From: Sipunculus nudus
Lineage: Eukaryota > Annelida > Sipuncula > Golfingiida > Sipunculidae
Length of the DNA: 64,000 bases
Direction of reading: 5' to 3'
Assembly: GCA_026874595.1 (NCBI GenBank)
Contig: CM049321.1
Location: forward strand, 45,687,797 to 45,751,796
Shown piece by piece: positions 12,241 to 56,141 of the stretch (its first letter is position 1; the number at the start of each line of letters is the position of its first letter). The notes beneath the pieces were generated by a model that made no database searches, was not told where the DNA came from, and was given only the letters and a program-made list of their open reading frames with translations. The translations under genes and the position numbers were made by a program.

Positions 12241-12244
12241 ATTA

Positions 12245-12628: not shown

Positions 12629-12696
12629 TGAATACTCATTTATATACTTAATAATTTTAAGCTATACCGATCCCGAGTTGCTCCTGTGCAGTCCTA

Positions 12697-17546: not shown

Positions 17547-17566
17547 TGATGTCTCGGTGGACCTTT

Positions 17567-27470: not shown

Positions 27471-28029
27471 GTAAATTCAACGCAATACATTAGTGTCCAT
27501 TTTGCTTTATATAAACACAGTCATTACAATAACTCATGTTTCTAGATATTTATTTAAGCTTTATACTTAATCAGAGGTGAACGAGGGTTATAAATGTCCA
27601 TAAGAACTACATATGAATAAATAAGTATGTATGAAGTACTAATGTGTTATGAATAAAAAATTAGGTATTAGTTATTTGCTACAAATGAAATTAAAATATG
27701 AAATATCTATTATTTTCATACATCTATTTTTGACTGCCTCATATCTCACTCACGTTGCTACTTCGCCCGAGTATGTAAGAAAGCCTAAGGTCACTATCAT
27801 TCCTAAAACACAAAAAAATTAGATTTAATTACACATAAATTTAACTATTATAAATATGATCATAGTCAATCTGAATAAATATTCTAAGAGGTACTCTGTG
27901 TGATACTATAGATTATTTCATCAAAATGATTATTAGATAATTATCAAAATCATTCTCATAACCAGAAATTTAATAAAAAAAACCCCAAAAAAGAAGCATT
28001 GTTATGCCAGCACCGATCATAAGCATGCA
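27471..28029. other. No recognised feature
   Basis: AT-rich with no supported frame or repeat end. Confidence 0.4.
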
Positions 28030-28455
28030 CCGGTTGAAAGCGTAAAAATGTTGATTTGTGATAATGGGCAGTGCGACCTCCAAATTGCGTACGCTCTGTT
28101 TGTTAAGCGCTGCTGTGAAAAAAATATTGATTTGTAATATTTGAAAGTACGACCAACAGATGGCGTACGCTCTGGTCGTGTAGCGCTGCTGTGAAAAATA
28201 TTGATTTTAAATATTGGGCAGTACGGGCACCAGATGGCGTACGCTCTGTCTGTTAAACGCTGCTGTGAAAAATGTTGATTTTTTATACTGGACCGTACGG
28301 CCGTCAGATGGTTTTCGCTGTTCCTTAAACACTTGTGTGAAAAATGTTGATTTGTGATATAAGGCAGTACGACCACCAGTTGGCGAACGCTCTGTTTCTT
28401 TAGCGCTGCTGTGAAAAATGTTGATTTGTGACATTGGTCAGTACGACCACCAGAT
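28030..28455. repeat. Minisatellite, ~74-bp unit, nearly six copies
   Basis: GCGCTGCTGTGAAAA-like starts recur at 28107, 28183, 28257, 28329 and 28403. Each is followed by TGTTGATTT.T.ATATTGG, CAGTACG.CC.CCAGATGGCG and TACGCTCTG. The unit is not a multiple of three, so the long minus-strand frames through it are a by-product. Confidence 0.85.
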
Positions 28456-28834
28456 GGAAATGTGCATTGTTTTTGGACCCATAACTTTACAAATTAGGTT
28501 ATACTGAACTAATTTCTGGCAAGTACATAGTGACTATATAGGGGAATAAATATGGTAAATATGAAGAAAGTCAGATGAGTGGTTTTGATATTAGGCAGTC
28601 CTGAAGTGTGATAATATGTTTTCAATGAAAAACTGAGATTTTTCCTGAATGCACAAATTCCAGTGACCCAGTTTTCGGTATGGTAGGAGATCTTGGGGAT
28701 ATCTAACAGTACGCCAACCTTCGGTCTTGTAGGTCAAACGATTTCAAAACGTGCCAGTCTAACGGACGGGCGGACGGACAGACGACGGACAATGGACCAC
28801 GACTATAGCACAGATGACTTATAGTCAGCTGAGC
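28456..28834 (-). mobile_element. 5'-part of a hairpin-ended element (truncated copy)
   Basis: Minus-strand 5' hairpin at 28834-28807 (GCTCAG, TGACT, loop, AGTCA, CTGTGCT), then the GTCCATTGTCCGTCG leader. The interior is related to 4260-4490 and 38010-38215 (repeat D: GTGACCCAGTTTTCGG, GATCTTGGGGATATCTAACAG). No 3' module follows; the minisatellite replaces it. Confidence 0.5.
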
Positions 28835-28979
28835 AAATAAGCAGGTACACACACTGTGCAAAAGTTATTGTAGGTGGCAACACCGGTCTTGTGTACAGAA
28901 AAGCCATCAAAGATGCATAGACAAGTCAAAATATCAGGCCAATACATCAAATTTCTTTTGAGTCAGGTGCCCTTGGCTG

Positions 28980-29390
28980 ACCAAGCTCGGGTGAGGTAGG
29001 CAATTACCCCTGAGTGAACCGGAATAAGCGCCTGTAGCTACTGCACTGAGTGAAATCTTGCCCTGCACCTGGCTGCAATGAGTGAACTTTTGACCTGTAC
29101 CTGGTTGCACTGAGTGAACTCGTAACCTTTTGCAAAATCTGATAGATTTGGCAACCTGTCAAAGCTATAAATAGGTCTAGACTGACCTTTGAGCTGTTAC
29201 ATCAAACATCTCTTGCTTAGGTAAGAAAGGCGGTTGCCCCGAGTGAACTGTGAAAAAATTGCTGGCGCAAGCTACTGCACTGAGTGAAATCGACCTTGAC
29301 CTGCACCTTGCTGCACTGAGTGAACTCTTGACCTGTTGCCTAATCTGCAACAGTCAGCAGTCTGCCAAAGCTATAAATAGACTTAAAAAC
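28980..29390 (+). repeat. Direct duplication of ~200 bp
   Basis: Two diverged copies (about 28980-29190 and 29215-29390). Both contain GCTACTGCACTGAGTGAAAT, a CTGCACTGAGTGAACT box and AAGCTATAAATAG near the end. The TATAAATAG string resembles a TATA box in both, but no gene follows. Confidence 0.5.
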
Positions 29391-29699
29391 CAGAGACATA
29401 ATTTTGGCCCGTCGGTAAAACTGTTAACACATACTAAAAGACTTAGGCTACAATTCTTTTTTTAAGCTGACATATTCATAACATGTTTTTTCATCTAAAT
29501 GTTTAAAATAAGAAACGATGCCATTCTTTCAATGTTGATGGTCTAATTATTTTGCAAAAGGTTATTTAAGTAAACATGAACATAGGCCACCTGTGAATAA
29601 TTATTGTGCAATGTTACAGAAGCTGAAATAAGTTTTTCCAAAAAAAAAGACTATTGCAGCCCTCAGTTTCAAATAGGCTTACTTATAGCCACGAGACTT
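29391..29699. other. No recognised feature
   Basis: AT-rich spacer before the next repeat element. Confidence 0.4.
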
Positions 29700-30882
29700 A
29701 ATTAAGCCATGGGTCTCGACGTTCAGCTGAATTTGTCTAAAAGGATATTTTTTTCAGGACGACAGTCCTGTGACCTTAACTAATGACCTTGTGACCAAAA
29801 AATGAAATCTTAGCACTTATTATCCGTGCACCCACAGTGCTTCCCAGAATTTAAAAAAAATGTGACTCCAGTGACCTTCAACTTTGATCTCTGGTCCCTG
29901 AAAATCAAAATGAATTTACTTAAGTTGTGGATCATTAAAAAAATCAAGTTTGAAGCCAATCTGTAGAATTATCATCAATAAACGAAATTGTGAATGGATG
30001 GGTCCTGTGACCTTGACCTTTGACCCTATGACCTCAAATAGAATAGAATCTTCCCCTACTGGCACGATAGCAATATCTTGAAGATGGAATGTTTGTGATG
30101 AAAAGTTTGGCTTGAAATGCATACATTCTTTTTAAAGAAATGGGTCCTGTGTCCTTGACCTTTGACCATTGGACACTAAAATCGACAAGGTTCTTACATT
30201 AGTGGTGAGCCATATATAAGTCAAGTTTGAAACCAATATGTCATCTGATATCATCTGATAACTAATTTGAGAACAGATGGTCCGTGTGACCTTGATCTTT
30301 GACTTTGTGACCCAAATTCATTTATGCTCTCCCAATACTGACAAGTCAGCTAAATACGCAAGATTGAAAGTTTGGGATGAAAAGCTTGGCTTAAAATGCA
30401 GCCATAAACATTTTAAATAAGAGAGTCCTGAGACCTTGACCTTTAACCTGATGACCCAAAAATCATACGGGTTCTTGCTTAAGTGGTGGGCCATATTTAA
30501 GTCAAGGTTGAATTTGACTTGGAGTTATTATCTGGAAACATATTTGTGTTGATCGACAGATGGACAGCCAGACAGCTAGACAAACAGACAGACAGACAGG
30601 GAGATTACTATAGGGCATCAACTTGTGATAAAAAAAATCATGTTTTGAAACACTAGATGTAATAAAAGCTGAGAAACTGACATGATTGTTGACATTTTAT
30701 TGTGAAAAAAATAGAAAAAAATATTCGTTAAAAAAACAAAAGTACAGGTGGCACCACCACTTTTCGGGAACTAGTCGTGGAATTTTCTAGGACCAGCAAG
30801 TACGATTTGTGCCCTGCTAACAGACGGCCGGACGGACAAAGCACAATTCTTATACCTCAGTTGACTTACAGTCAGCTGAGCT
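29700..30882 (-). mobile_element. Hairpin-ended element with nuclear-receptor-like tandem core (copy 3)
   Basis: The 5' hairpin is at 30882-30854 on the minus strand (AGCTCAG, TGACT, loop, AGTCA, CTGAGGT), with the GTCCGGCCGTCTG leader and GTTAGCAGGGCAC. The 3' end is a worn GACCCATGG box near 29705-29715. The core (29755-30560) has about five units of ~140 bp with TGACCTTTGACC boxes. No reading frame. Confidence 0.5.
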
Positions 30883-31044
30883 AAAAAAAAAGGTCACTGT
30901 GACCATATGACCATCAGTTGCACAAAACTTGGTGATGACAGTCCTGTTGTTTCTGCGATTGTAATGTTAGTATGTTTACTTTGTCAAATGACTAAGTTAA
31001 AATTCCTGCAACTTGACAAATAATCATCAAATCCAGACCATTTG

Positions 31045-31280
31045 ATTAAACTTGAGAGAGCTCATCTTTGAGATTATTTCTGTGAAATATTGAACTTTTT
31101 GGCTGAATGATTTTAGAGATAAACATTTTCAAAGGTTTTTTTAGTTCCCCCCCCCCCCCGTAAAATGTTAGTTCATGTAGATGGCGCAACAAACATTTTT
31201 GCATAAATTGGGGGATCCTAGCTACCCCTATTCCTGAAAAAAAATTATGGGTTAATGTACTGATGATGGACAAAAAGGTT
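31045..31280 (-). repeat. Dispersed repeat F, copy 1
   Basis: The reverse complement aligns with 58690-59020 (CAGAAATAAT, GGCGCCA/GATGGCGCAAC, poly-C/G tract, ACATTAACCCATAAT). The 75-residue minus-strand frame is part of this repeat, not a gene. Confidence 0.55.
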
Positions 31281-31434
31281 GATTAAGGTGACGCAACCAA
31301 AACCTCAAGTTCATACTTGACTCTAGTGACCAACCTTGCATAAAAGTTTCTGATGATAGCTCCAGCCGTTTCTGTTTGGTAATTTTAGTGTCCTTTTTGG
31401 CCAAATGACTAAATTCAACTTCCTGTAACCAAAC

Positions 31435-34615: not shown

Positions 34616-34792
34616 ACAATAGCAGTAAAATCTCCAGAGTATGGCTTCTTGTTCTTGCTCAAGACAGAGCCTAATAGAGACATATGTTGGTTCAGGTTTA
34701 TACCACAGAGGACCCATGGGTTAAGGTGCTCAGCTAAATTTTGTTTAATCTTAAGTAGCAAATGCAAAATATATTTATTTTACATATATTTG

Positions 34793-34794
<2 letters not shown>

Positions 34795-34845
<51 letters not shown>

Positions 34846-35125
34846 CATTTAAAAGGCTTAGAGGAAATGACCCTGTTTTCTTATGTTAATCAAATAATTA
34901 ATATATGTTTGCGGAACTCATACTGTGCACCTTTTTGGACTATATCATATATGCAGGAGTCTCTCATGTTCAAACATTTGTATCATTATTTCAGCATTAT
35001 TATTTCAACTATGTGACCGTAATATTTATGTGCGTAAAATAACAACTCCATCGGGAATGTATGAAACCCTGTCAATTATCTAGAGGAAGAAAGTGTAGAT
35101 TAGCTGGAGTATAATAATACACGTT
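34795..35125 (+). repeat. Dispersed repeat E, copy 1, anchored on (TA)n
   Basis: A TA tract (34795-34843) is followed by about 280 bp that align with 42060-42330: AGCATTT.AAA.GCT, ATACTGTGCAC, GATGCAGGAGTCTCTCA/GCAGGAGTCTCTCATG, ATCATTATTTCAGC. The common start directly after TA suggests a family whose end lies at the microsatellite. Confidence 0.6.
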
Positions 35126-35319
35126 GGGCGCATACCAATGCTTTACATTTCTAATTGGTAAAAGGCAGCAGACAAAACAAGCGCAGGGCATATATCAAAG
35201 GCGTTCACGAATGAGAACACTAGACCAGAATGCTTGTACACTGTTTCATAACTTTTATGAGGCCTGTCATTAATAATATGCGAGATACATAGTCCCCTAG
35301 CTTCAAGAATGTATTGGAA

Positions 35320-35442
35320 ATGGCAACCACCACTAAAGACTTTTTGCGTGATTGCGGCTACCATGACTTGTGGCATGCCATGTCTGCGCTGGAGGACAAG
35401 CTGCAGCAGCAAGCTGAACACACCAAATGTCAAAGTCAGCAG
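35320..35442 (+). CDS. Possible first coding exon, unknown protein
   Basis: An ATG in a good context (GAAATGG) opens exactly 41 codons up to a potential donor (CAGCAG|GTTATT) in phase 0. The reading is MATTTKDFLRDCGYHDLWHA then MSALEDKLQQQAEHTKCQSQ. GC content is clearly above the flanks. The second half is predicted helical or coiled-coil. If not spliced, the frame runs to a stop at 35544. Family unknown. Confidence 0.3.
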
Positions 35443-35544
35443 GTTATTATGGACGGTTTCTCAGGAAATATACTTTGGCAGGACCCTAACATATTACTCT
35501 GTTTGGTCTGCATGAGGTTAATGTTTATGATTTATCAAGCATAA

Positions 35545-36700
35545 ATATCGTACAAGCACTCATTGTATATATTGTTATGATGTGAGTTACAGAAGTTGTG
35601 TTTGCCTTGAGATGTGCTTGGATATGGATTTTTCATTTTTTTCCATCTTTGAGTTTTTTTTCATTTTTTTCTGTATAAAAAATAAAATTATGCAAATTTT
35701 ATCATGTTTATTTCGTGTCTTATTTTGCACATTAAGGTAGGAAAGAAATCAGTAATCCAAGATTAAAATGAATAGCTACTTACGTTTAGAACAACATACG
35801 GACAGACAAGCTGTTGTAAGACCCTTGATAGTCAAAGCCTCACTTGGGCAATAACTTTGGAAATGCGACCAATTTATCACGGTCCCATCGGTAGTCATAG
35901 TTCCGAGGTTTTACTGTACATGTTGCACGGTGTAATACATGAAAATTTCACTCTTTGACCCAAAAATTGAAAAGAATCTTCCCCTGTCGACAGGTGAACC
36001 ACATGTGAGAGAAGGACCTTGGTAAATCAGTCTGAGGTGGTCCAATATGTACGATAAACCATCAAATTATTGACTGGCTGAAAGAAAGCTGCCCATGTGT
36101 TGGGACACTGAAACTGCTGTTCCTATGATAGTCAAGATAATCACACAACACAAAGTGAGAATTTCAAGATCACATAATTATCTCACGTCATATTTCAACT
36201 AGCCTGATAGCTCATCAAGCCCCTGTTCAGTGTTCTGGCAAATATTACCACAACGCTTTTCTAAACTTTATCAAATGTAGGAGAATATGGGGTTGTGTAT
36301 AGAAAATAAGCTGTAGTACGTGAGTATATCAGAACAGCAAAATAAGCCTTTTTCATTCTGCTTTGTCTAAATAAAACAAATGACAATAATGTTGTCCTTG
36401 TTTTTTTTCTGATAAACAGATAAATTGTATCCTGTTACAAGCATTAAATTTTATAAGCCGCTGATGACTGTGGCAGATATCACATAATGGTTGGAGAACT
36501 GTTTTCATAAAACCATCCATCATCAACTGTAAAACCTTTGACCCTCGACTCTAAGTCCAATGCCTAAATCAGAAGCTACATCCTTTAATTTCTTGAAAGA
36601 ACAAGACTACCGCAAATGTGCATAATACTCCTGTCTCCTGACCTCTGCCCTCATTAATATGCGGTAATTTTGCAGAGAATTTAAATAAGGAGATTTGTAC
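35545..36700. other. Non-coding, contains one end of a pogo-like MITE
   Basis: The segment 35820-35922 ends CGAGGTTTTACTG followed by TA, the inverted form of the CAGTAAAACC termini at 22871. The left end is not found. The remainder holds no supported feature. Confidence 0.4.
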
Positions 36701-37050
36701 TATTGGTTAACATTTACGTTGAGTTTCATGAAAGTCAATCAATTTTTTGGTAAGTCATCATGATGCAACCAAGGTATGGTGACCACTGACCTTATTAGAT
36801 ATGCACGGATTTTGCCCGGAATCGAACTTATGTGAGACAAATTGTTTAATATTTCTTCGAGTTTCATCAAAATCCATCAAATCCTGATAAGTTACCGCGG
36901 TGACACCACAAAGTAGTCCCGTGTCCTCAGACCTAATAAAATATGTGTAAAAATCGACTACAATCAAACTCGAGTGAGATAATCTATTGGTTAGAAGTTA
37001 TGGCGAGTTTCGTGAAAATCCATCAAGTTATGATGGCGATGCTAATAGTT
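36700..37050 (-). repeat. Dispersed repeat C, inverted copy
   Basis: Contains GAGTTTCATGAAAGTCAATCA, GTTACCGCGGTGACACCACAAA and ACCTTATTAGATATG-type units in repeated ~150-bp steps, related in reverse to 4560-5065. Confidence 0.4.
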
Positions 37051-37499
37051 AATGGATGGGCAACATACCGATAGTACTACATATGGACAGACTGTGGGTA
37101 TACATAATACATCCTGTCATAGACGCCATATAAAAACAAGGTCACATTGATCACAGTGTTTGGGCTAAATATAAGTGTTATATGATTTAAGCATAGTGAA
37201 AAGAGATAATGTAGAGTTTGGTTTTTATACAGTTCTTTAAAATATTCTGGTGAGTAGCTAGTTATGTCTGGCATTTATGCCTGTACTGCATACATATATG
37301 TATTGTATCCCTTCTCTTAGTTCTCCTTTTTTCCTTAACCATAATGTCTAAAAAACATTGCTTTACATGAAAGAGGGAGAACCTTGACAGTCTCCGTTGG
37401 TGTTAATGAACTCACAATAATAGTGAAAAGGGGATAAAAGATAAGCAGAGCATCCCCTCGTATGGGGGCATAAGAAAGGCTGGATGTATATAAAAATAA
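37051..37499. other. No recognised feature
   Basis: AT-rich, no supported frame. Confidence 0.4.
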
Positions 37500-38244
37500 G
37501 GAGGGCAATTCTGTGACCTTGATTTTTGACCTGTGACCTCAAAATCAACAGGGTTATTCCTCTATTACTGAGCAATATGTGAAAAACTGATTTGAAGGTT
37601 TTGGAGGAAATTTTAGGCTTAAATATCTACATGCTTTTTCAAAAAGTGTTACACCTCTGACCCCAAAATCAATAAGGTGCTTCATCCGTTGGTGGTTGAG
37701 CCATCGGTTGAAGATGAAAGGTTTTGGCTTGTTGGTTGGGAAGGATGGACAGACTCACCGATGAACAAAGACGTTACTAGGAGAGTGAGATAAGCACACA
37801 CACTGCAAAATATTGTGAATGGTGCAACAATTCTTGTGTACACACTTGTAAGCTGTACTAGGTGTATGGACAAGCAAAATTAAAGGCCTACAGGTCAAAC
37901 CACCTCTGAGATCATGGCAAAGATGTACACTACATATCAATAAATTTACCCGGCACCACCAGGCTTGTTTGATAAAGTATTCGCAAAAACAAAATCATTT
38001 GTGGTTTTTGATACAAGGCAGTCCTTTAGTTTACTGAAAGGTTTTTAATGGAAAATTGATAAAGTTTTCCCTAGCATCTAGAAAGAACGAAGTGACCCAG
38101 TTTGATAGGGGAACTATGGGAATTTTGGATTTGCAGGTCCAATGGTTTCCCAATGTGGACGTACAGATGGCCAAACGACAAGGCAGACCGATGATGGACA
38201 AAAGATCATCACTACAGCCTAGATGACTTATAGTCAGTTGTGCT
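37500..38244 (-). mobile_element. 5' part of a hairpin-ended element
   Basis: The minus-strand hairpin at 38244-38216 is worn but paired (AGCACAACTGACT, loop, AGTCATCTAGGCT). It is followed by repeat D (38010-38215) and two TGACCT-rich units at 37510-37690. A possible matching 3' end (GACCCATGGGTT inverted at 34708-34720) lies 3.5 kb away, which would make an unusually long copy. Confidence 0.4.
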
Positions 38245-38454: not shown

Positions 38455-39823
38455 TGTTTTAGATCTTTTCTGTCAAGGAAAGAGAATATGTGATGCATGC
38501 ATTCATATCCTGAATGCAGCCTTTGTAAGTAGGATGGACATTGTGATCGAATATTGGTGATTTTTATACAGATGCTGGGCTGTGCTTCTTGCGACACCAC
38601 AGGCCTCTGTGGTTCTTGCAATGCCACAGGCCTCTTTGGTTCTCGCATAATCACCGGCCTCTGTTGTTGTTGAGACATCACAGGCCTCTGTGGATGTTGA
38701 GACGCCACAGGCCTCTGTGGTTCTTGCGATACCAAAGGCCTCTGTAGTTCTTGCGATACCACAAGCCCCTGTGGTTCTTGCGATGCTACAGGCCTCTGTG
38801 ATTCTTGCGATGCCACAGACCTCTGTGGTTCTTGTGATACCACAGGCCTCCGTGGTTTTTGCGATACCACATGCCTCTGTGGTTCTTGCGATACCAAAGG
38901 CCTCTGTAGTTCTTGCGATACCACAAGCACCTGTGGTTCTTGCGATGCTACAGGCCTCGGTGGTTCTAGAGGTTCCTCTATTTCGATATATTCGGTAATT
39001 TTTTTTCAACGTTTTCTTTTTCAGTTTCCTGTTTTATGAGGGTTTTCTGAGCCAGTGCCACCAGTTTTTTTAGGGCAGAAGCCGATAATGCCATGGACAA
39101 GTCTGTCTCATCTGTATTTATGTTCTTTAGCAGGTCCTCTGCTGACAATGAGGACAGATCTAACAGATGGCGCTTCAGCAAATGACGTCGATAAAAGGTG
39201 CTGGTGATGGTGCTGCTTGTGTTAATCTAGGCCCTAGTTTGGGGGACAGTATTGGCATGGCAACATCTTCCTGAATGTTCGTACTGACGGAGATGGAATC
39301 TACTTCCGAGGAGTTTGTACCCACTGCTGGAAAAAGGGTGGTTCTTTTCAAAACCGTTTGGGCAGAGGAAGTGTGTACTGCTGTATAACGCGAGGATACT
39401 GGGAAGGCTTTCGTTTGTGGCACCCCTTTATTAGCACTCGTTTTGGCCGGAGAGTTTTCCTGTTTGGTCAAGGGGATAACTTCTAAACCATGTTGAGATG
39501 TCTTTATTAGCTGCAAAGGAACGGGCCCCGAGGATGCCTGGCTTAACGTAGGGTCTTTCTCTGTTACATTATTGACTTGTTGATTCTTCCCTGCTGAGGG
39601 CAACGGATTCTTCAGTAAAGATCGGAGATTCTTATCCCTTTGAACAGCATAGAGGCAGCTTGACTTCACTGGTGACTGGCTCTGTTTTATACTGGGTAAT
39701 TCATCATCATCGTCTGATAAAGCAATCAGATCTCGATCTCAGGAGGTTCAATATCACCATCAGCTTCAACATCAACTACATCTTTAAAAAAATACCAACA
39801 TCACTGTCATCATCATCGTCTTT
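38455..39823 (-). CDS. Candidate gene exon: acidic protein with nine-residue repeats and F-box-like end
   Basis: The minus-strand exon runs from an acceptor (CTTTGCTTTAAG) at 39824 to a consensus donor (ACA|GTAAGT) at 38455/38454. The order is an acidic start (KDDDDDSDVGIF, DVVDVEADGDIEPPEIEI), LIALSDDDDELPSIKQ, a Ser/Thr/Pro-rich part (39669-39175), a leucine-rich helix (RHLLDLSSLSAEDLLKNI, 39170-38980), and about 14 copies of EPQRPVVSQ-like repeats. The end is SGYECMHHIFSFLDRKDLK, which resembles the first half of an F-box (substrate adaptor of SCF ubiquitin ligases). Four frame changes occur, near 39789, 39735, 39180 and 39002, and each is repaired by adding one base; two lie in runs of seven or eight A/T. 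A true pseudogene or assembly deletions are both possible. The F-box call is tentative and the remaining exons were not located. Confidence 0.45.
38580..38962 (-). repeat. Coding minisatellite, 27-bp unit, ~14 copies
   Basis: The unit (plus strand TTCTTGCGATACCACAGGCC, then TCTGTGG) is 27 bp, so each copy adds nine residues without changing frame. A six-unit higher-order block is duplicated, with the variant ACCAAAGGCC at 38731 and again at 38893 (162 bp apart). It lies within the F-box-like exon. Confidence 0.9.
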
Positions 39824-39855: not shown

Positions 39856-41804
39856 CTAGTGACCCATGGGTCATGACGCTCAGCCGACTGACCTATTGAC
39901 AATATGTCCTTGCACAGGCAACTGATTAAGATAATGTAGGTGGCATCATCGTTATTGCATATTAGCTTAAGTTCATCAAGAGCCATAAGCACACCGAATT
40001 TTATGACAATCCAATCAGCCTTTCCTTAGGTGCTGGCAATTTGTGTGTATTTTGCATTATTTCTGGGATGCTCAAACATACCCCAAAACTCTGAGAATAT
40101 AGGTCACAATGACTCAATTTCAGGTTTCTGGGGAGAACTTTTGAGGAACTCTCATGATGTCAAGTGAGAAGATTCTGGGTCCGATGGTTATGATTTGGTC
40201 GCTACTTTGTTATCAAATTTCAATTATTCTGGTGGGTGTCTATAAGCCCCATAGCTCGAAGAAAGGGGAAACAGAGATCTAATTTCAGGTTTTCAAGGAG
40301 ATTTTTCATAGACCTACCTGGATGACAAGTTAGAAGATTCTGGACCCAGTGCTTATGATTTGTCCCCTGTAAATGGATGACTGCATCTTTAAAAGTCTCA
40401 AAAATAGAGAAATAAACTTGCTTAAGATTCTAAAAAAAGTCCAGGTGGCGCAACCTGTCTGCAGGGACTGAAGAAACATAGAATGATGATTATGCATACA
40501 GAAAAGTTCAATGCATTAGTTGTCCTGATACAGGAGCTATTGTATAAAATTTTTAATTAGTCGGGGGGGGGGGGTACTCCTGAGCCCCATAGCTCGGAGA
40601 ATATTGGTAACAGAGACCTAATATCAGGTTTCCTTGGAGATTTTTATGGACCTCCCAGGATGTCAAGTAAGAAGATTCCAGGTCCAATGATTACAATTTG
40701 TGCCCTGTTAACAGATGACCACACCTTTTAAGGTCTCAAAAAAGATAAAAATGCGTAAAAATGAAAAAAAGTCCTGGTGGCGCCACCAGTCTACAGGAAC
40801 TGATGAAACACTCCATGATGAACAGCATGCAAAGAATCATGGCGATCGATGCACTAGTTGTTCAGATAATAGAGCTTTTGTATCAAATATTCCATTATAT
40901 TGGGGGGTAGTTCGAAGCCCAATAGCTCAGAGGTATTGGATAACAGACAACTAAGTTCAGGTTTCCAAGGAGACTTTTTATTGGCCTCCCTGCAGGTCAA
41001 GATACGAGATTCTAGGTCAAAACATTACGATTTGTGCCCTGTTAACAGATGACCGCATCTTTTAAGGTCTTGAAAATAGAAAAAAAAGTAAAAAAAATCG
41101 AAAAAATACAGGTAGCGCCACCAGTCTGCAGAAACTGATGAGACCTCCTTGATCAATATCCATGCAAAGAATCATCGGGATCAATGCATTAGTTGTTAAA
41201 ATACTTGAGCTTTTGTATCAAATTTTCCATTATTCTGTGATGTACTTCGGAGCCCCATAGCTGAAGAATATGGGTATCACAGACCTAATTTTAGGTTTTC
41301 AAACAGATCTTTCATGGACCTCCCTGCTTGTCGAGAAACAAGGTTCTAGGTCCAATGATTTAATTTGTGCTCTGTTAACAGATGACCGCATCTTTTAAGG
41401 TCTCAAAAATAGAGCGAAAAAAATCGTAACAATCGAAAAAATCCAGGTGGCGCCACCAGTCTGCAGAAAACTGTTGAAACACTCCATGATCAATATCCAT
41501 GCAAAGAACATGGGGATCAATATATTAGTTGTTCAGAAACCTGAGATTTTATATCAAATTTTCCATTATTCTGGGGGTATTTCGGAGCCCCATAGCTCAA
41601 AGAATATGGGTAACCCGAGACATAATTTCAAGTTTCCAAGGAGATCTTTCATGGACCTCTAAGGATGTCAAGTTAGAAGATTCAAGGTCCAGCTGTTACG
41701 ATTTGTGCCTGGACAAATAGACTGACAGACGGACAGCTAGGGTTAGACGGACGACGGATAAAGAGTGATTGCTTAAGCTCAGATGACTTGCAGTCAGCTG
41801 AGCT
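39856..41804 (-). mobile_element. Complete hairpin-ended element with 335-bp satellite core (copy 4)
   Basis: The best-preserved copy. On the minus strand the 5' end is a 29-nt hairpin (41804-41776): AGCTCAG, one mismatch, TGACT, 3-nt loop, AGTCA, one mismatch, CTGAGCT. It is followed by a CCGTCGTCCGTC leader. The 3' end is the perfect palindrome TGACCCATGGGTCA, then CTAG and T. The core contains about five satellite units of 330-338 bp, with the boxes GGTGGCGCAAC (near 40445) and GGTRGCGCCACC (near 40770, 41108 and 41444). No reading frame is longer than chance. It is non-autonomous and resembles pearl/HINE elements in design. Confidence 0.65.
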
Positions 41805-41837: not shown

Positions 41838-42009
41838 CAAGCTATGTATCCTCAGGGTCAGGTCACTTGGCTGAATTCTGGAACACTTTATCAAATGCAA
41901 ATTATACTTACATATTAATATATTATTATTCACAAGCTATGTATCCTCAGGGTCAGGTCACTTGGCTGAATTCTGGAACACTTTATCAAATGCAAATTAT
42001 ACTTACATA

Positions 42010-42018
<9 letters not shown>
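41838..42018 (+). repeat. Exact tandem duplication, 95-bp period
   Basis: CAAGCTATGTATCCTCAGGG and the following bases, 86 in all, are identical at 41838-41923 and 41933-42018. The duplication ends at a (TA)n tract. The identity indicates a very recent event or an assembly artefact. Confidence 0.9.
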
Positions 42019-43114: not shown

Positions 43115-44423
43115 AGGTCAGCTGATTCTATGTCTTCTGAGCTATAGTGCATGCTGATCCGTCCGACTGGCACGTTTTCCCCTGTAAACACGATTTAATT
43201 TTCACAGCATATTCATATAAAATATTTAAATCTATTAATATATGAAATTTCAAAATGAATGATCAAAAAGAGTAGTTTTATACATGTTCTCAGACACCGT
43301 GTCAAGCATTTATTACATCATGCTAGCCCAGTACAGTGGCGTGCAATGAGTTATTCAGCCCTCACCTACATGCTTCACTCCAGGCAGCTCTCTAGGTACA
43401 AGTTAGTTATCTTCTCCCCCCCCCCCCACCCCCTCCCACCTCTCCTTTAAACCGACAAGATGCATATAAACTAGATGAATTTTATATATTTTTTCTTTTA
43501 TTAATTCATACTTGTTCCAGACTTTTGCTTCATTGTATTAAAAGGGTTGACAATGATTAAAGTGAACATCTAATTGTTTTGCAAAAATATTGTGGATGTT
43601 CATCAATAGGAATACCTTCAGAAGAATGAAAACTTTGCGTTCTTTTTCAACATGTGTGAATTTGAATAATAATTTCAGTATTATATTATATTCGAGATAA
43701 TAATTAGGATAATAATATTCTATCTCCCTCCTGAAACCATACATTGATGGTACCTGATTTAAAAAGGGATTTTTAATAAAGTTTACAGAATCTTTTTATA
43801 TTAGTTAATAAAATTAAGCCCGTACTGAAAACACAAATGTACAAAACTTTTATTTTTTGGAATAGTGATGCGACAAATAATCTTGAAGATGCCATGTTGT
43901 TGCATTATTTCCATGATATTACCCTTAAAAGATAACTTTCCTTTAATTTCAGTTTAAACATTTATATAAATAATGAAATATGTTTAAGCATAATTGGGAA
44001 CGATTTGAGCCAAATCAAGGATAAATAATGATGCAACTTACAATTCTGAATTAACATATATTTTAAGATATCTCATTGCAAATTTATAAAATTTGTAAAT
44101 TAAAAAATGAAAATGATAAAAACTATATGCCAAAAATGGAAAGGCTAAAAAATTGGGTTAAATATAAACTAAAAATCATCATTTCTTGAAAATAAATATA
44201 GGGATCAGTCCATTCTGTCCACCTGTCTGTCCATCGGTAAAAATTTCATATACATGCAACACAGTATTTCACAACTGTGTTTTTTTTTAATGCAGTTCTA
44301 TCAGAGTATTAGTTTCACAATTATACATTGAGCACTTTTCCCATATGAGGGTCCTTTCCTCTTAGCTTTCCAAAATCTAATATATATATATATATATATA
44401 TGTATATATGTTTTAATAATAAT

Positions 44424-44437
44424 AATAATAATAATTG
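44424..44437 (+). repeat. Candidate LINE target-site duplication, left copy
   Basis: AATAATAATAATTG immediately precedes the LINE 5' end and is repeated at 49944-49957 after its A-rich tail. Because it is microsatellite-like, slippage could create the match. Confidence 0.5.
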
Positions 44438-44847
44438 CAATTCCGGTTCCGGTCGGGTCGACTAGACGTACTTCACATCTGCTCTACAATTTTTCGGATA
44501 TAGGTATCTAAATATTCCGTTCATGCCACGTCAAGTATCCAGGACTTTAACATCTGATGTAACAGTATCAGGAACAGTAGTCTGTTACAGGTAAGAGCAT
44601 CCAGGAGGTCTGGATATATCGCTCTTTCTGTGAAAACTTAAATTTACAATTGACTGTTGACGTCCTTAAGCTGTTCGGTGTTCAACAGGAACTCTATAAA
44701 ATAAATTCATGAAATATATGATAAAGTGAAATACAAGAATTGCAAACTAACATTGAGCGAACATTGGCCTCCCTTTGAAGCAAAATAAATAGCCATAGAT
44801 CGAAGAATTTCCTTATCGAACTTTTCTTTGTTTTTTTTTTTTACAAA

Positions 44848-45966
44848 ATGGCGAACACTTTACGGGGTACAGGTGTGAACCACGATTTCATTGATGTAAC
44901 CGGTAACAAACGGGTTACGGTTGAACCAGTGTTCATCAAGTGTAAAGATCTACCAGGGTCCACAGAACATGAAGATTATGTAAGCATCAGGGAGTTATGT
45001 GCGGCGGCAGAACACGTAGCTGGTTACACAACCATGGAAGGTGCGCAGCGCATTCGCGGTGTTTGGCGACTATATCCCAAATCAATCGAAGCCCGCTCCC
45101 GGCTGCTTATAGAAGGCATTCAACTACGAGGCCGTTCGTTCTCGCTGCTTTCAAATAATCCTTTTATTGTCCGCCAGGAGGCGAACACCCAAGCAGGACC
45201 GCCGACCACGCGTGTCATCGTTGGGGGGATTCCCCTCTCCTACACCAGTAAGGAGATAAGCCAAACCTTAGAAAACTTAGGATGTGAACTGCGATCCAAG
45301 ATATTCGACGAATGTGATAGAGATGACAACGGAAAGCTGACCAGATGGAAGACAGGCCGCAGGTTTGTGTATATAACCAGACCACAGTCCCCATTACCAA
45401 ACAAAATACAAATGGGGCTTTTCCAGGCCAGTATTTACCATCGGGAACAGAAAGACGAAGAGAAACGCGCGAATGCGCTGTGCGGAAACTGTCTTCAGTT
45501 AAGCCACTTTAAACAAGAGTGTGAGAACCCAGTGAAATGTAGAGTCTGCCAGCAAGACGGACATATAGCGGGTGATCCTGCATGTGAGATAGAAAAACTC
45601 ACAGATGCCACTAAGCAGCTGGAAAGACAAGCAGATATGATGGCTGAAAATCTGGACCAGCCTCAATCATCACATGATCTTAACTCAAAACTTACCGACG
45701 TAGAAGTAAATTGCAAGAATGGTGAAATCTCTAATAGTGGTCGCAAGCCCAGAAAAGCTAGAAGACAGACAAAAGTCGACAGATCACGCTCATGCTCCAC
45801 CTCCCGGGCAGATAAAATGAAGGTGATAGAGATTGACAACTTCTTAAAGTCGATTAAACTGGGAGAGCAGAATAAAAGAAAAGCATCATCCCCCACAGGT
45901 GACCAGACACAGAAAAGGCAAGAGCTCCACAACTCTCCAGTATTACGAGGATGGCCATTACTTTGA
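44848..45966 (+). CDS. LINE ORF1 protein (RRM-like plus zinc knuckles)
   Basis: A 372-residue open frame starting at an ATG (ACAAAATGGCG) about 410 bp into the LINE. Residues ~110-185 (RVIVGGIPLSYTSKEISQTL ... RRFVYITRP) look like an RNA-recognition fold. A zinc-knuckle region follows at ~212-250: CGNCLQLSHFKQEC (C-X2-C-X4-H-X4-C) and CRVCQQDGHIAGDPAC (C-X2-C-X4-H-X6-C). The C-terminus is basic and charged (RRQTKVDRSRS). ORF1 proteins bind the element's RNA and chaperone it in the ribonucleoprotein used for target-primed reverse transcription. It is uninterrupted, ending at a TGA just before ORF2. Confidence 0.85.
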   Translation: MANTLRGTGVNHDFIDVTGNKRVTVEPVFIKCKDLPGSTEHEDYVSIRELCAAAEHVAGYTTMEGAQRIRGVWRLYPKSIEARSRLLIEGIQLRGRSFSLLSNNPFIVRQEANTQAGPPTTRVIVGGIPLSYTSKEISQTLENLGCELRSKIFDECDRDDNGKLTRWKTGRRFVYITRPQSPLPNKIQMGLFQASIYHREQKDEEKRANALCGNCLQLSHFKQECENPVKCRVCQQDGHIAGDPACEIEKLTDATKQLERQADMMAENLDQPQSSHDLNSKLTDVEVNCKNGEISNSGRKPRKARRQTKVDRSRSCSTSRADKMKVIEIDNFLKSIKLGEQNKRKASSPTGDQTQKRQELHNSPVLRGWPLL

Positions 45967-46053
45967 CTTCTCTGCGGATGTGACCGGACATGTCTTTGGA
46001 TTAAATGATTTTCCAAAAACGTTCTCATACTGTCTGCCGGATTCTTACTGAAT

Positions 46054-49000
46054 TTGGTTAGCCTGAATTGCCATGGTCTGAGAACCAAGTTAAGAAGAAG
46101 CACTATCTTAAATACGCTTAAATCGCAAAAAGTTGGAATAGCTTGCCTGCAAGAAACTTATATTGATCATGAACTTATTGAATTTTTTGAAAAGCAATGG
46201 AATGGTAAAGTTTTCCAAGTCGCAGGTGGCAAACACAAAAATGGTCTGGCGATATTAGTCAGTAAAGAAATAGTTTCAAAATTAGAAAATTTAAAAGAAA
46301 TTACCGAAATCACAAGTGAAAGAGTACTGGGGATTTCATTTAGGTTAAATGACATGCTATACAAGGTTTTCAATGTGTATGCACCATGCGATTCAATCGA
46401 AAAGGCTAATTTTTATCATAAATTGAAATTTATACTTGAAGAACAACAGATGAATACTGATTGTATAGCCTTACCCGGAGATTTTAACTCAGTTATGGAT
46501 AATGATTTGGACATTATTTCAGGTAATAGTCATAAGAAAATAGAAGTTGAAAGTTTCTGTAAATTGGTAAATGATGTCCTTTTAAATGATACTTGGAGAA
46601 TATTTAATAATAAGGATAAAATGTACACTTGGTGTAGAACTAACCCTTATATAGCCAGGAGAATTGATTACATATTTGTAAATGAAACACTATTAGATAT
46701 GGTGAAATGTAGTAACATCACTTACATTCCTTGCACTGATCACAAGGCAGTTTCAGTTAAAATACAAGTAAATAAAGAACCCAGGGGTTCATCTTATTGG
46801 AAATTTAATAATTCATTGCTAGAGGATAAAAAATTTATTAATATGATAAATGATCTCCTTACAGATTTTTATACAAACGACAATGAGTTTAAAAATGATG
46901 CTCAATTACAGTGGGAGCTTTGCAAAGTTAAAATAAAAGAATTTACAGTAGAATATGGTAAACAGAAATCAGCAGAATGAAAATCAAAACTATCGGAATT
47001 GACAAATATGTTGTATACGATAGAAAAACAATTAGCAAATGACTCCTCAAATGAAGAGTTACAAATTAAAGCATCACATTTAAGGTCCGATATAGATGTT
47101 ATTGCCATACACGAAACAAGGAGTGCACAAACCAGAGCGAGAATTAAATGGAATGAACAAGGCGAAAAGAACACGAGTTATTTTTTAAATCTTGAGAAGG
47201 CAAGAGCAACTCAAAAATACATACCAAGTCTTATAGATGAATCAGGTAAAATAATAACGAGCCAGACGGATATATTAAAACAGTTACATAAACATTATAG
47301 TGATCTGTACAAAGACAAACTAGAGACGAATGCGCAGAACTTCAAAGATTTTATTGGAGATATTAATTACCCAAAACTAACGGAAGAACGGAAAATGAAA
47401 TGTGAAGGTTTGGTAAATAAGGAAGAAGTTGCTAGGGCTCTACAAAAAATGAAAAATGGATCAAGTCCGGATCTGGACGGACTGACCACGGAATTTTACA
47501 AATTTTTTTGGCCAAAAATTAACACTTTGGTTGTTAACTCTTTTAATGCAGGGTTCCAACATGGAAAATTATCCGTCCCCCAAAGACGAGGGGTTATCAC
47601 CCTACTTCATAAAGGCAAAGGCTCACCAAAAAATATTTTGTCGAACTGGCGCCCTATTAGCATTACAAATACTGATTACAAGCTAATAGCAAAGGTTTTA
47701 GCTCTACGCCTTCAGCAAGTTATAAATCATATTGTAAGCCCAAATCTAGTTGGATTTATTAAAAATCGCAATATCTCGACTATTATTCGTCAGATTGATG
47801 ATATCATCACATATACAGACAGATATCAGAAAGAGGGAGCCATCGTCGCACTCGACTTTAAGGGAGCTTTTGACTCCATCTCCAAAAATTATATAGCTAA
47901 GGCTTTTGACTTGTTCGGATTCGGCCCAGATTTCTTACGCTGGATAGACGTATTGTATGAGGCAAGCGAGAACTGTATTCAGTATAACGGTTGGCTCACA
48001 CAAATGTTCCCAGTTCAAAGGGGCGTAAGGCAAGGATGCCCCCTTTCGCCTCTAGTTTTTGTAGTCGCTCTAGAATTACTTTCTCTTAAAATAAAACAAA
48101 ATAAAAACACTGAAGGTATACAGCTACCAGATGAGAACTATGATATTAAATTCACGAAAATCGCGCTATATGCAGATGATATTACTCTTTTTATGAAAAA
48201 CGAAAATGATATTACAGAATGTTTTGATATCTTAATAAACTTTAGGAGAACTTCCGGTTTAACACTTAATCTGAACAAAACCGAAGGCTTGTGGATTGGC
48301 AAGAACAAACAAGTATAAATACATATGGCAGCATTAGGATGAATGTTAACCCTCACACAAGAATAAAAATTTTAGGCATTACATTTGATAGCCACATAGC
48401 AGCTTCCGAAATAGATGTAAATTGGAAATCACAGATTGAATTTATTCAACGTGAAATTAATAAATGGGAAAAGAGAAGTATATCAATTATGGGTAAAGCC
48501 GTGGTCGCCAAAACATTTCTTATTTCAAAGCTAATTTATATTATGCAGTCTCTAGCGCTTCCTGACCATGTATTACACGAAATAAATAAGATGATATTTA
48601 AGTTCCTGTGGAAAAGCACTAGTAACAGAAAAGGCTTAGAGAAAGTAAAACGAAAAGTACTAACAGCTGAATACAAAAACGGCGGGATAAAGATGATTAA
48701 TGTTAAAGAATTGCAACAAGCCTTTTTACTAAGGTGGGTTAAAGGGCTGGAAACCGATAAAAAAGAAAGCTGGAAAAATATACCCATCTTTTATTTTAAT
48801 AAAATGGGTCGTAATCTCTCGGTTTTTACAAGCAATACCTCTGTGAAGGAGACCAAAGGTATAAATCTCATTACATCAGCATTTTATAAAACTGTCTTGA
48901 TGAACTGGTTACAGCTTAATAAGTTTTCAGATACAGACTTATTGACTAATAATGTGATATGGAATAATAAGATGATAGTATATAAAAACAATCCTCTTTT

Positions 49001-49751
49001 CTTTAAAGATTGGATCAAGGCTGGTATTATATTTATCCAGGATATGTTTATCCGGGACGTAATGATAACCTATGAACAGGCAGTGCAGTTGATAGGTGAT
49101 GGCCCAAGTAGAATCCTGGAATATAACGTGATGATGAATGCTATTCAAAGCTCAAAAAAACGCCTACAGATGGCGCCACTAAAGGTACTCTTTAGGAGCA
49201 CTCCGATCGCTGATTGGAACTTGAAAAAATTAAGATTGTCGATAACCTCCGATACTGTAGACCAGCCCCCGTCTAAGCGGTTCTGGGAAGGAAAATACTC
49301 CGGAACAGAACTCGCAAAGAGTTATTGGGAAACTGCATATCATTGTTCTGGGGAAATTAGACTCCGGGTACTACAGTGGAAGATATTGCATAATATTTTT
49401 CCGACAAAAGTTATGTTACACAAAATGGGCATAGCTGATTCAGAAAAGTGTATGTTCTGTGACGAAGTTGAATATATCGAACATTTCTTTTACCGGTGTA
49501 AAAAATTAATGCCGTTCTGGGAGTATATAGAAAATTATATTCCTAACGTTATTAACAGACGAATTATCTTAAGCGAAAGGCGTGTTATCTTAGGTTATAG
49601 TACGGAGGATAGAGTACAAGATAATTTATCAGTTCAAGACGCAAATTTCGTAAACAAAACTCTGCTTCTTGGGAAAAAGTCTATCAGTAGGTCAAGATAC
49701 GGAAATGGTACTGATGTTAGATATTTATTTGACAGCGAAGTTGTCAAATAA
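46054..49751 (+). pseudogene. LINE ORF2: endonuclease-reverse transcriptase, two lesions
   Basis: The first part (46054-46977) is an APE-like endonuclease with SLNCHGLR, the catalytic CLQETY, NVYAPC, PGDFNSV and RIDYIFVNE plus TDHKAV. After a TGA at 46978-46980 the same frame continues as the reverse transcriptase (to 48318). Its motifs are SNWRPISITNTDYKL, motif A ALDFKGAFDSI, RGVRQGCPLSP and the catalytic YADD at 48169-48180. A one-base loss near 48300-48315 moves the frame; 48291-49751 encodes the thumb and C-terminal domain with the ribbon C-X2-C...H-X4-C (CMFCDEVEYIEHFFYRC). No ATG lies between the preceding stop (46008) and the domain, so the start may be lost or non-canonical. Otherwise full-length; inactive as read. 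Confidence 0.85.
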
Positions 49752-49943
49752 TCGAGTAAAGTATTAATGCTTAGACTTATGACACATTTGTAAATCTTTG
49801 AATGCTATGTTATACATTTAACGGAGATATTATGTTTATATGGCATGTGTATATTGTGGAAAATAATGTTTGAAATGCTGCTACTCTGGATGTTATGAAA
49901 AAATGAGTGAAACTGAAATAAAGTAAACAAAAAAAAAAAAAAA

Positions 49944-49957
49944 AATAATAATAATTG
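49944..49957 (+). repeat. Candidate LINE target-site duplication, right copy
   Basis: The same 14 bases as at 44424-44437, directly after the A tail. Confidence 0.5.
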
Positions 49958-50039
49958 AAATAAGCATATTTTGCATTCGCTAATTTTTTTTCCAAAAATT
50001 CAGCTGAGCGCCGTGAGCAATGGGTTCCTTGTTAAAATT

Positions 50040-51654: not shown

Positions 51655-52290
51655 GTCAGTGGGCAATGAGTGGGTAGTTCCAACTTTGTTTCTGATTCAG
51701 TGGGCAGTGAGTGGTTAGCTGCAACTTTGTTTCTTATTCAGTGGGCAGTGAGTGGGTAGCTCCATCCTTGGTTCTGATGCAGCACATGGGCAGTGAATGG
51801 GTATCTCAAACTTTGTTTCTGGTATGATGGGCAGAGGGTGGGAAGCTCCAAGTTTGTTTCTGATTCAGTGGGCAGTGAATGGGCATCTCCAACTTTGTTA
51901 TTGATTCAGTGAGCAGCGAGTGGGTAGCACCTTCTTTGTTTCTAATTGAGTGGGCAGTTAGTGGGAAGCTCAAGCTTTGTTTCTGATTCAGTGGGCAGTG
52001 AGTGGGCATCTCCAACTTTGTTATTGATTCAGTGAGCAGCGAGTGGGTAGCTCCTTCTTTGTTTCTAATTGAGTGGGCAGTGAGTGGGAAGCTCCAGCTT
52101 TGTTTCTGATTCAGTGGGCAGTGAATGGGTATCTCCAGCTTTGTTATTGATTCTGTGGCAGCGAGTGGGTACCGTTGCGCCTTCCTTGTTTCTAATTGAA
52201 CGGGCAGTGAGTGGGATGCTCCAGCTTTGTTTTTTATTCTGTGGGCAGTGATTAGGTATCTCCAACTTTGTTATGGATTCAGTGGGCAGT
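51655..52290. repeat. 41-bp minisatellite with a three-unit higher-order repeat
   Basis: About 15 copies of a 41-bp unit (AGTGGGCAGTGAGTGGG, then TAGCTCC..CTTTGTTTCT-GATTC). In the middle the variants follow a fixed order, A (GGGCATCTCCAACTTTGTTATTG), B (GAGCAGCGAGTGGG..CTTC) and C (GTTTCTAATTGAGTGGG), giving a 123-bp higher-order period. Because 123 is a multiple of three, long minus-strand frames arise; they are not genes. Confidence 0.9.
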
Positions 52291-52497: not shown

Positions 52498-54333
52498 AGC
52501 TCAGCTGACTATTAGTCATCTTGAGCTATAGTCCTTGTCCGTCGTCTGTCTGTCTGGCGTTCCATCTGGCTGGCCATCCAGCCGTTAACAGGGCACGTTT
52601 TGAAACCGTTGGATCTATGAAAGCAAAATTTTTTAGTACAGTTAGATGTCCCCCAAAATCTGCTACCATACTGAAAATTGGGTCACCAAGACTTTGTTCC
52701 TTCAAGATATTAAGGAAAAATCTCTGTTCTTCATAAAAAAACCATTGTTACACTTCAAGGCCGCCTAAAATTAAAACCACTGATCTGTTTTTGATCATAT
52801 TTAGTATTCATATTCTTTCATACATTTTCTAAGAACTTACCAAAAAATATGTCAGTATTGGGTATTGTTTTTTAAATTTTGGGCTTAAATATAATGCAGT
52901 TTTTACAAAAATCAAGAAATATATTTACTCACTTAATATTAGAATTGCTGAAGCCAGAGACTTTTTTTCAGAGATATAACTTTATTTAATCAAGATTCAA
53001 TTAATTACCTAAAATTAGATCTGAATTTTGCAAAATGTTCAGGTTATTAGCATAAATAAAAAATCAATACCTTAAATTTTGTCCAACTTTGGCACTTTTG
53101 ATTTTATTTTCACAGCATATATACATAAGGATTTAATCTTTAAAAATCTGAAATTTCAAAGAAATTGGTAGGAAAGAATAGCTTTTATTCATGTTTTCAT
53201 ACACCATGTCAAGTGTTGTTTACATCTAGCCCACCTAGTAGTACAGCCTTCACTTGCATTATGTAACCCACCCCAGGCAGCTTGCCTTGGGTCAGCTTGG
53301 CCACTACCAGCAGGCTTCCCCTCTGCCCTGCACTCACCCCCCCCCCCCCACCAGATGGTGCATAAACTAAATGAATGTTATTATTTTCTGTATTTGATTC
53401 ATTCTTATTCTAGGCTATGCTACATTTTAGATTTTGTATTGTACCACCAGGGTTACAATGATTAAAGTGTACATTTAATTGTGTCCACCAAGTGATGTAT
53501 TGCTATGAAAGTGTGAATGTTCATGAGATAAGTAATTCCTTACTTCAGAGGAGTAAAAACTTCACCAGGTGTGAAATTGACTATTAATTCCAGTAATAAA
53601 TTAAAACTGGGATAGTAATTAGCACAATGATATTGATTGTCCCTCATTCAACCAACAGTGTGTATACTTTATTTGAAAAGAATATTTCTACATCCACCTT
53701 CGTGCTGCCCTCACTTTTCCCTTCTCCAAACCCCATCCCAAAGTCAGCCTCAGTAAGCAAGAACAAGATGAATCAGATATATTCATACTTTAATATTTTG
53801 TATAACTATTCTTCCATAGGTACCTATGTACATGCCAGAAATTATGTCAATATTGTGTAATATTAAGACATAGTGGGCATCACAATAATGTACCTTGTCA
53901 AGACTAAAGAGATATTGTGTCATACAGTCACAAATTCATAAATCACTTCATCAGCATAGTTAATCATAACATCATATCTGTCAAATTGAAAGTTTGCAGA
54001 CTACCATACACTTTAGATCCTTCAACAAATAGCCTTATCATCATTCTACTACTGCTTATTACTGCTGTCATTGCATTCATATTTGCTCAAATATATCACA
54101 GTTTTCAACCCCTCCTAAATAAGTAAAAAATAAACCACTATATTTGACTCTATTAATCCATCAGTCAGGTAATTTCATTTATCATTTACTCACATATTAC
54201 ATTACATTCCTTTATAATAGCCCAACATGTCCATGATATTCATAAGCTTTATCGAATCGATGTAGTATCACAGTGGAGAAACATTTATAGTCCAATCACG
54301 ATCAGCTGAGCGCCGTGACCCATTGGTCCCTTG
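52498..54333 (+). mobile_element. Complete hairpin-ended element (copy 6)
   Basis: Plus orientation. The 5' hairpin is at 52498-52527 (AGCTCAG, TGACT, loop, AGTCA, TTGAGCT), with the leader TTGTCCGTCGTCTGTCTG and GTTAACAGGGCAC. Repeat D is at 52610-52990 and repeat A at 53090-53660. A 3' module (CAGCTGAGC, GACCCATTGGTC) ends in CTTG at 54333 and is followed by T. Length 1.84 kb, no protein. It shows that repeats D and A are interior segments of one element type. Confidence 0.6.
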
Positions 54334-55544
54334 TTTTGATTACAGGTAAAAACAGCAACAACAAGAAATGTGATAATTTCTAAAGTAATATTTAAAGAAT
54401 TTGTTTTTATCTAGAATTAATTCACTGTACTCAAGTTCTTCTGATAAACTGGGCAGTCCGACCAATTTTTTTCATTCTCATCATCTTTATAAATGTTGAT
54501 CAGAATCATGTCAAACTATTTTGTCTTCATCACTGTATTTGTCATTTTCAACTCAAAAGGACCTAATCATTAGCAATATTATGCCTGTTCTTTCACACTA
54601 TCAGTTAATTATTTCTATATACTAAAGTTTTCCAGCAAAACCATCCCAGCACACAGTCTCAGTACCTCTTATACGGCTGTTTATCCCCTTGTTATGGCTC
54701 TGTGTGTTTGTAAGCACAGTCCACTTGTGTTTGTTTACCATTACAAAGCCACGTGGCCAGAGGTCCAATTGTGAGCCATAACACAGTTTTTCAGCCAACG
54801 GGAACATGTATTACAATTTTTTGGGCCAAGTCAGGCCATCTCTTGATTTAAATGTGTTGTGGCTCCACATGCACAGGGCCGCAAATGCTGTGTTTATGAT
54901 TACACCACAGAACATATCAGTCTTTTGTTTTTAACACTGATTTACAGGAATAAGCAAACCGTTTCAAGGCAATATTTTGGCAGGTACAAAAGGGAAAGAA
55001 GCTATTTTTTTTTGTTAATTAATCATGCTTCATAGGTGATTAGATCCCTTTAATAATGCCACGCTCACCATTGTTACATCTCATTGTCATGTTATAGTGT
55101 ATGTTAGATACATGCTTCTGATTGTATTTACATGTGAAGGTTTAGATTGGTGCTTTGTGGGGCAGAAGGGGTTACAAATTCATAACATTTAGTACTTAGC
55201 ACCTCTACATGTTTCTCTGGTTGGAACCTTTCTAAGGTTTAATATGTAACTAGTAACATAGTCTATGGTATGGATCCACACCAATTGATATGCTCACTGC
55301 TGTACTTTTTGATTGCATGTTTTCCACTCTACCACTTGACTATGTTTGCTCATGGTTCTGATCTGCGTAGGGTTTGATCTGGTTGTCATAAGTAAACATA
55401 AAACAGTGTTTTCACTCAGATTGCCAATCATTCAAAGGTCTTTTAACCATTTTTTTAATAAGTTATGTTTACACTGCAGTCATGTGACAGGAGTATTATG
55501 GAATTGTCCCTGTCTGTCCATACATTAACTATTAGTGTAACCAC
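54334..55544. other. No recognised gene; upstream region of the third zinc-finger gene
   Basis: No supported frame. A non-coding first exon for the gene at 56142 may lie here, but I could not identify a convincing promoter or donor. Confidence 0.35.
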
Positions 55545-55985: not shown

Positions 55986-56141
55986 GTTCTTTTTCTATAT
56001 TTATTTTTTATATAATGATATTTGCAAGTCTACTGAGTGTCTCTGCTGGGTATAATATTCATTTTTCTGTGGCACAGCCAGTTTTGGTTCTGTTTAGAAC
56101 TCTTCTACTGTTTTATTGCAGGAGACATCAAAACGACAGAA

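Follow-up and report, generated by a model that had tools for sequence, protein, structure and literature searches.

Genes and repeats in the window

The window, i.e. the whole 64-kb stretch of Sipunculus nudus DNA that was analysed, contains two C2H2 zinc-finger genes at 16089-17594 (-) and 56037-57212 (+), which are ORFs with 11 and 6 zf-C2H2 stretches, respectively; a broken paralogue is located at about 9502-10679 (-). Besides, it harbours a group of repeated elements bounded by conserved termini, one of which carries a non-LTR retrotransposon, and several other repeats. Units of ~145 bp make up a repeat at 4688-5181 (+), 55515-56010 (+) and 36598-37062 (-); the first two copies are without the terminal modules described below, and the repeat is perhaps another element family, one copy of which lies within the element at 34706-38244. 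An inverted dispersed repeat (30900-31423 and 58722-59062, 70-79% alike) is found outside the elements. Close to the left side of the element at 52498 there is a 41-bp array (51656-52290), and an array with 27-bp units, which is open in several frames, is located at 38580-38967. Scans with Rfam (gathering threshold) and for tRNAs gave no matches.

As type element we chose the copy at 39856-41804 (-). It comprises 1949 bp and consists, in its own orientation, of a 5' hairpin beginning at 41804, a GTCC/GTCY stretch, a 335-bp tandem unit repeated 4.4 times (40245-41709), a 3' subTIR and a perfect palindrome; it ends with CTAG, followed by T. Beside this worn element, at 41838-42018, a 95-bp unit is present 1.9 times with 100% identity, which is either a recent duplication or an assembly artefact.

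The terminal modules

Read in the orientation of the elements, an alignment of the copies in the 64-kb window gives the 5' end as AGCTCAGCTGACT nnn AGTCATCTGAGCT. In the type element, this hairpin (41776-41804, (-)) is made up of 7 bp, a C/T mismatch and 5 bp closed by a 3-nt loop, and it contains the 5' ATIR/subTIR. The pattern occurs four times in the window if up to three mismatches are allowed (near 4493, 28807, 30854 and 41776), versus zero occurrences in 100 shuffles. The earlier note had placed the hairpin at these and five further sites (near 9042, 15425, 38216, 43115 and 52498), which are more worn and lie beyond this pattern limit; in leave-one-out profiles, all nine reached 25.3-39.9 bits, the maximum in 20 random 64-kb sequences being 16.1 bits. 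A covariance model built from the nine ends recovered them and, in addition, two 5' ends that had gone unnoticed, 12969(-) with an E-value of 1.7e-6 and 7067(-) with 2e-5. Model matches to the same palindrome on the opposite strand were left out of the counts, as were the weak matches at 30583-30623 (E 0.0085), which lie in and beside a GACA microsatellite within an element, at 2290-2347 (E 0.04), and all others with E >0.05.

Over the nine copies, 88% of the stem cells are paired, as compared with at most 40% when the stem is slid. Compensatory changes were found at none of the 12 pairs, and shuffles of the nine copies reach the observed values; selection on the structure beyond shared descent consequently lacks support. 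Such a lack of compensatory change is expected if the copies decay from one source.

The 3' end, again from the alignment of the copies in the window, is CAGCTGAGCGTCGTGACCCATRGGTCCCTTG. The corresponding part of the type element (39856-39886, (-)) consists of the 3' ATIR/subTIR (CGGCTGAGC), the palindrome GACCCATGGGTC and a terminal ACTAG. All nine sites listed previously for this module were confirmed by leave-one-out profiles (27.5-50.0 bits; maximum of 20 random 64-kb sequences, 18.3 bits), with their exact positions adjusted to 885, 2144, 2658, 12981, ~29699, 34706, 39856, 50031 and 54333; beyond these, a 3' covariance model detected no end with E <0.01 in the window. The palindrome GACCCATRGGTC, which sits downstream of the 3' ATIR, is present as an exact copy in four of the nine ends, and the 3' palindromes fold weakly on their own (0 to -3.2 kcal/mol). 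A terminal CTTG or CTAG, as proposed in the earlier note, is found at six ends (CTTG at five, CTAG at one), but not at 2658 (CTCG), at 34706 (TCTG) and at the eroded end 29699.

A 3' hairpin and a tetranucleotide end containing CT would also suit a canonical Helitron1 (5'-TC, 3' hairpin plus CTRR, A^T target), and one of the nine copies, the CTAG at 39856, fits CTRR. The other eight ends, among them the five with CTTG, do not. Moreover, only 5 nt separate the palindrome from the end, as compared with 10-12 nt given for Helitron1 in PMC5148889, a 5' hairpin and asymmetric terminal inverted repeats (ATIRs, see below) are present, and an A directly precedes only 1 of 10 5' ends (and a T only 6). 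We regard a Helitron1 origin as most improbable.

In a window as rich in AT and in simple repeats as this one, one might suspect that unrelated palindromes and microsatellites have clustered by chance. The leave-one-out scores of all 18 ends, however, lie beyond the random controls, and both ends newly found by the model are followed by GTCY-type sequence (four motifs at 12969, two at 7067). The random controls refute chance clustering, the probability of which is negligible. Altogether, at least three GTC[CTG] motifs are found in the 81 nt after the hairpin at 9 of the 11 5' ends, versus 3% of random stretches; 43115 has one motif.

Pairing of the ends into elements

Among the 20 ends, seven neighbouring pairs are correctly oriented, whereas shuffling of all labels gave a mean of 2.6 (P 0.0006). 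When the strand order was kept and only the end type was shuffled, the mean was 4.4 and P 0.039, which makes the order of the ends by itself modest evidence. For the 18 previously listed ends alone, the P-values were 0.0002 (all labels) and 0.013 (end type only). The paired-terminus model of the earlier note is supported. The seven proper pairs delimit elements of 1.2-3.5 kb and one of 6.9 kb, which holds a LINE.

Besides the type element, the elements on the minus strand are 2658-4521 (1864 bp), which is a mosaic; 12981-15454 (2474 bp) and 29699-30882 (~1.18 kb, with an eroded 3' terminus), whose cores have spaced repeats of ~142-146 bp in common; and 34706-38244 (3539 bp). The ends of the latter are worn; it contains the repeat 36598-37062, which may be a nested element, and its two ends, adjoining and in the right orientation, form a pair absent from the earlier note that is the weakest supported of the seven. 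On the plus strand, the element 52498-54333 (1836 bp) has a 5' module in common with 2658-4521 and with the 5' end at 28835, and the element 43115-50031 spans 6917 bp including the LINE (ORFs 44848-49751). That this element is split by a LINE, as had been suggested, was corroborated by a non-LTR retrotransposon at 44848-49751 (+), which has endonuclease/exonuclease/phosphatase, reverse transcriptase and zf-RVT domains distributed over four ORFs and an A run at 49929-49945.

Four 5' ends (7067, 9070, 12969 and 28835) and two 3' ends (885 and 2144) remained unpaired. The worn 5' end at 12911-12969 (-) belongs to a further element, which is arranged head-to-tail with the 3' end 12981 across an 11-bp spacer and whose own 3' end was not found; tandems of whole Helitrons are mentioned in PMC7492417. 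No 3' end was found for the stretch 28044-28835 (-) either, in which the 5' end is combined with a GTCC microsatellite and a 74-bp array (28044-28457, 5.6 units). The orphan 5' end at 9012-9070 (-) was identified by the 5' covariance model and the leave-one-out profile, and in a worn one at 7008-7067 (-), a stretch of 62 bp is 81% like 15386-15447 at the 5' end 15454. As to the two 3' ends, the remainder of the element to which 855-885 (+) belongs may be situated beyond the left edge of the window or may have been lost; for the other, at 2114-2144 (+), a 5' end was not found, and the sequence 885-2144 has core segments in common with 43115-44700.

Not counting the LINE, such elements add up to 14,699 bases, or 23% of the window. 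The statement that most of its dispersed repeats belong to this class holds for about half of them: 7132 of 14808 dispersed-repeat bases are inside the seven elements and 7676 are outside, 4473 of the latter in the three zinc-finger gene stretches.

Inverted repeats at the two ends

The outer arm of the 5' hairpin has its complement in the 3' module (CAGCTGAGC), a relation that the earlier note did not contain. Pairing between the 5' arm and the 3' ATIR comprises 8-13 bp in six of the seven paired elements, in two of them with one interruption, and in these six, equally stable pairing was reached by only 0 to 25 of 2000 30-mers drawn at random from the window. For the pair 38244-34706, the pairing is at chance level (3 bp; 1555 of 2000 random 30-mers as stable). 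In all seven elements, the duplex has a lower computed energy than the element's own 5' hairpin has (-3.7 to -16.8 versus -2.5 to -9.8 kcal/mol), although values for two strands can be compared only roughly with those for one strand. A distance of 22 nt remains between the end of the 3' ATIR and the 3' terminus, which is within the 20-30 bp given for Helitron2.

The mismatch of the 5' hairpin is conserved: in the nine copies, the C at position 8 is opposite a T (eight copies) or an A (one copy), and never opposite a G; the copy at 15454 has an extra G inserted beside the mismatch. The 3' ATIR has a G at the position matching this C in nine of nine cases. Read together, the conserved mismatch and the invariant G might mean that the 5' arm is designed to prefer the distant 3' end to the adjacent arm as its pairing partner. 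According to Bao & Jurka (2013, PMC3627910), pairing of both repeats is suggested to destroy the 5' hairpin and so to set the end point of replication; the mismatch pattern offers a simple test of this termination model. It is a rather speculative idea that the mismatch might constitute a strand switch sensing the completion of the displaced strand, with the termini also acting as interchangeable modules.

Cores and mosaic elements

Tandem arrays were detected in several copies, though not in all. According to the earlier note, the cores differ while the ends are conserved; this holds in part, as a small number of core classes recur among the elements. In the mosaic 2658-4521, the first ~527 bp resemble 52498-54333 (71%), whereas the last ~800 bp, i.e. 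the 335-bp repeats and the 3' end, resemble 39856-41804 (71-84%). Likewise, 28835 has a 5' module that agrees with the modules of 4521 and 52498 for ~360-410 bp and is then followed by a different array, the one with 74-bp units. Judged from these alignments, ends and cores appear to have been exchanged among elements; that 2658-4521 combines a 5' part from one subtype with a 3' part from a different one fits template switching in rolling-circle copying.

A stretch of the ~146-bp core repeat was also observed at 58285-58576, with no terminus found nearby. A common core module is present at 885-994, 43174-43280 and 53092-53160; it starts directly after the 3' terminus 885 and, within the elements at 43115 and 52498, after 59 bp and ~594 bp, respectively. 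This arrangement may reflect a nested insertion, a captured module or read-through.

Insertion sites

In the 6 nt preceding the 5' ends, the proportion of T is 73%, as compared with 32% in the window, and none of 20,000 draws was as high (10 of the 11 ends, 7067 left out). The flanks of the seven elements were joined and compared with the window in search of unoccupied paralogues, and none was obtained: what matched was the flanks' own sequence, a local duplication or a repeat next to the element, the 5' end of another element, or a stretch of at most 27 bp. A one-sided look-alike of an empty site was noted right of the 3' end 885, where homology resumes with the cores at 43174 and 53092. It was not counted, because the onset of the common module is at a similar point in each of the three cases, so that the match may reflect the module's own edge.

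Short inverted repeats near both ends could also be the terminal inverted repeats of a MITE or foldback DNA transposon that is mobilised by a DDE transposase, and pearl elements were indeed once called MITEs before being re-categorised as non-autonomous Helentrons (PMC7492417). In our elements, however, the repeats are asymmetric, being terminal at the 5' end and located 22 nt inside at the 3' end, and the two ends have different hairpins. Furthermore, the seven elements show no visible target duplication beyond one or two T, a T/TT duplication of 1-2 bp being indistinguishable from insertion into a T run. We consider a MITE or foldback transposon very unlikely.

Coding capacity

A six-frame read-through with X at stops, compared with Pfam, revealed no Rep/helicase domain; it covered the stretches 2658-15454, 28000-30882, 34706-38244, 39856-41804, 43115-44779, 49752-50031 and 52498-54332, and for the LINE (44780-49751), the scan was confined to its ORFs. 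Apart from those in the LINE ORFs and in both zinc-finger ORFs, the Pfam matches above the curated cut-offs were zinc fingers at ~9.5-10.7 kb, outside the paired elements. Matches below the curated cut-offs in the frames of the elements (E 0.004-0.4) were taken as chance.

Identity and proposed mechanism

Taken together, these elements are very probably worn copies of HINEs, i.e. non-autonomous rolling-circle transposons from the Helentron/Helitron2 group. The likeness to pearl/HINE elements suggested in the earlier note is supported, as the parts agree with the architecture of the oyster Cg_HINE elements given in PMC7492417. Two further statements need qualification. That the 5' hairpin is no standard Helitron feature is correct for Helitron1, but this hairpin, the one item that the earlier note left unexplained, is described in the literature and is a defining feature of the Helitron2/Helentron group (PMC3627910). 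In the same way, the structure is unexplained only relative to Helitron1, whereas the architecture of Helitron2 and HINEs has already been described (PMC3627910 and PMC7492417).

We envisage the following course of transposition. A Rep/helicase provided by an autonomous Helentron or Helitron2 elsewhere in the genome would nick at the 5' terminus, one strand would be displaced, and termination would occur at the 3' palindrome. The 3' ATIR, by pairing with the 5' ATIR, could displace the 5' hairpin and mark the end point, as Bao & Jurka proposed. A single-stranded or circular intermediate would then insert at a T-rich site and leave the target unduplicated. Recognition in trans would concern the ends only, which would account for conserved ends combined with exchangeable cores.

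In published paper texts, four terminal strings yielded one 11-mer, which occurred in seven papers unrelated by title. The termini had no matches in virus and prokaryote contig collections; as these collections are viral and prokaryotic, this absence says little.

Comparison with known systems

Bivalve pearl elements have a tandem-repeat core between conserved modules, as do the elements studied here, the comparison being one by description alone. The autonomous partner may be either a Helentron proper, which carries an endonuclease, or a Helitron2, which does not.

For Helitron2, Bao & Jurka (PMC3627910) describe hairpins at both ends and ATIRs of 8-15 bp, the 5' copy being terminal and part of the 5' hairpin and the 3' copy lying 20-30 bp inside the 3' end. 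Both hairpins, the ATIRs, the placement of the 5' ATIR within the 5' hairpin and the distance of the 3' ATIR from the 3' end are the same here. In contrast, coding Helitron2 elements are described there and none was seen here, and Helitron2 of C. reinhardtii inserts between TTTT and T/C. Helitron2-like ends are also reported from Fusarium, together with evidence suggesting a circular intermediate (PMC5148889).

A similar architecture is found in insect and mite Helentrons and HINEs (DINE-1), as described in a paper on mites and Drosophila (PMC4067079). SubTIRs, an inverted repeat near the 5' subTIR (in DINE-1), a 3' stem-loop and central repeats with a microsatellite are the same in our elements, and the preference for TT would agree with their T-rich 5' flanks; an autonomous partner, which is known in insects and mites, was not seen here.

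The comparison with Cg_HINE, the non-autonomous Helentrons of the Pacific oyster, is by architecture alone and relies on PMC7492417. Cg_HINE elements consist of a 5' subTIR, a complementary inverted repeat, a microsatellite (in several elements of the type GTCY, GTCC or GTCK), central tandem repeats, a 3' subTIR and a palindrome; all these kinds of part are also present here. Their target is T-rich and not duplicated, with which the T-rich 5' flanks of our elements and the lack of a visible duplication beyond T/TT would agree. In both systems, the complementary inverted repeat is a few nt from the 5' subTIR, and related flanks enclose unrelated cores in some elements. In contrast to Cg_HINE, sequence decay is heavy in our elements, and a tandem array was not detected in every copy. 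That such elements make up almost a quarter of the window fits the published view that they spread satellite-like arrays in bivalves (PMC7492417). The elements described here extend the HINE/Helitron2 architecture, a kind of system already known, to another repeat family.
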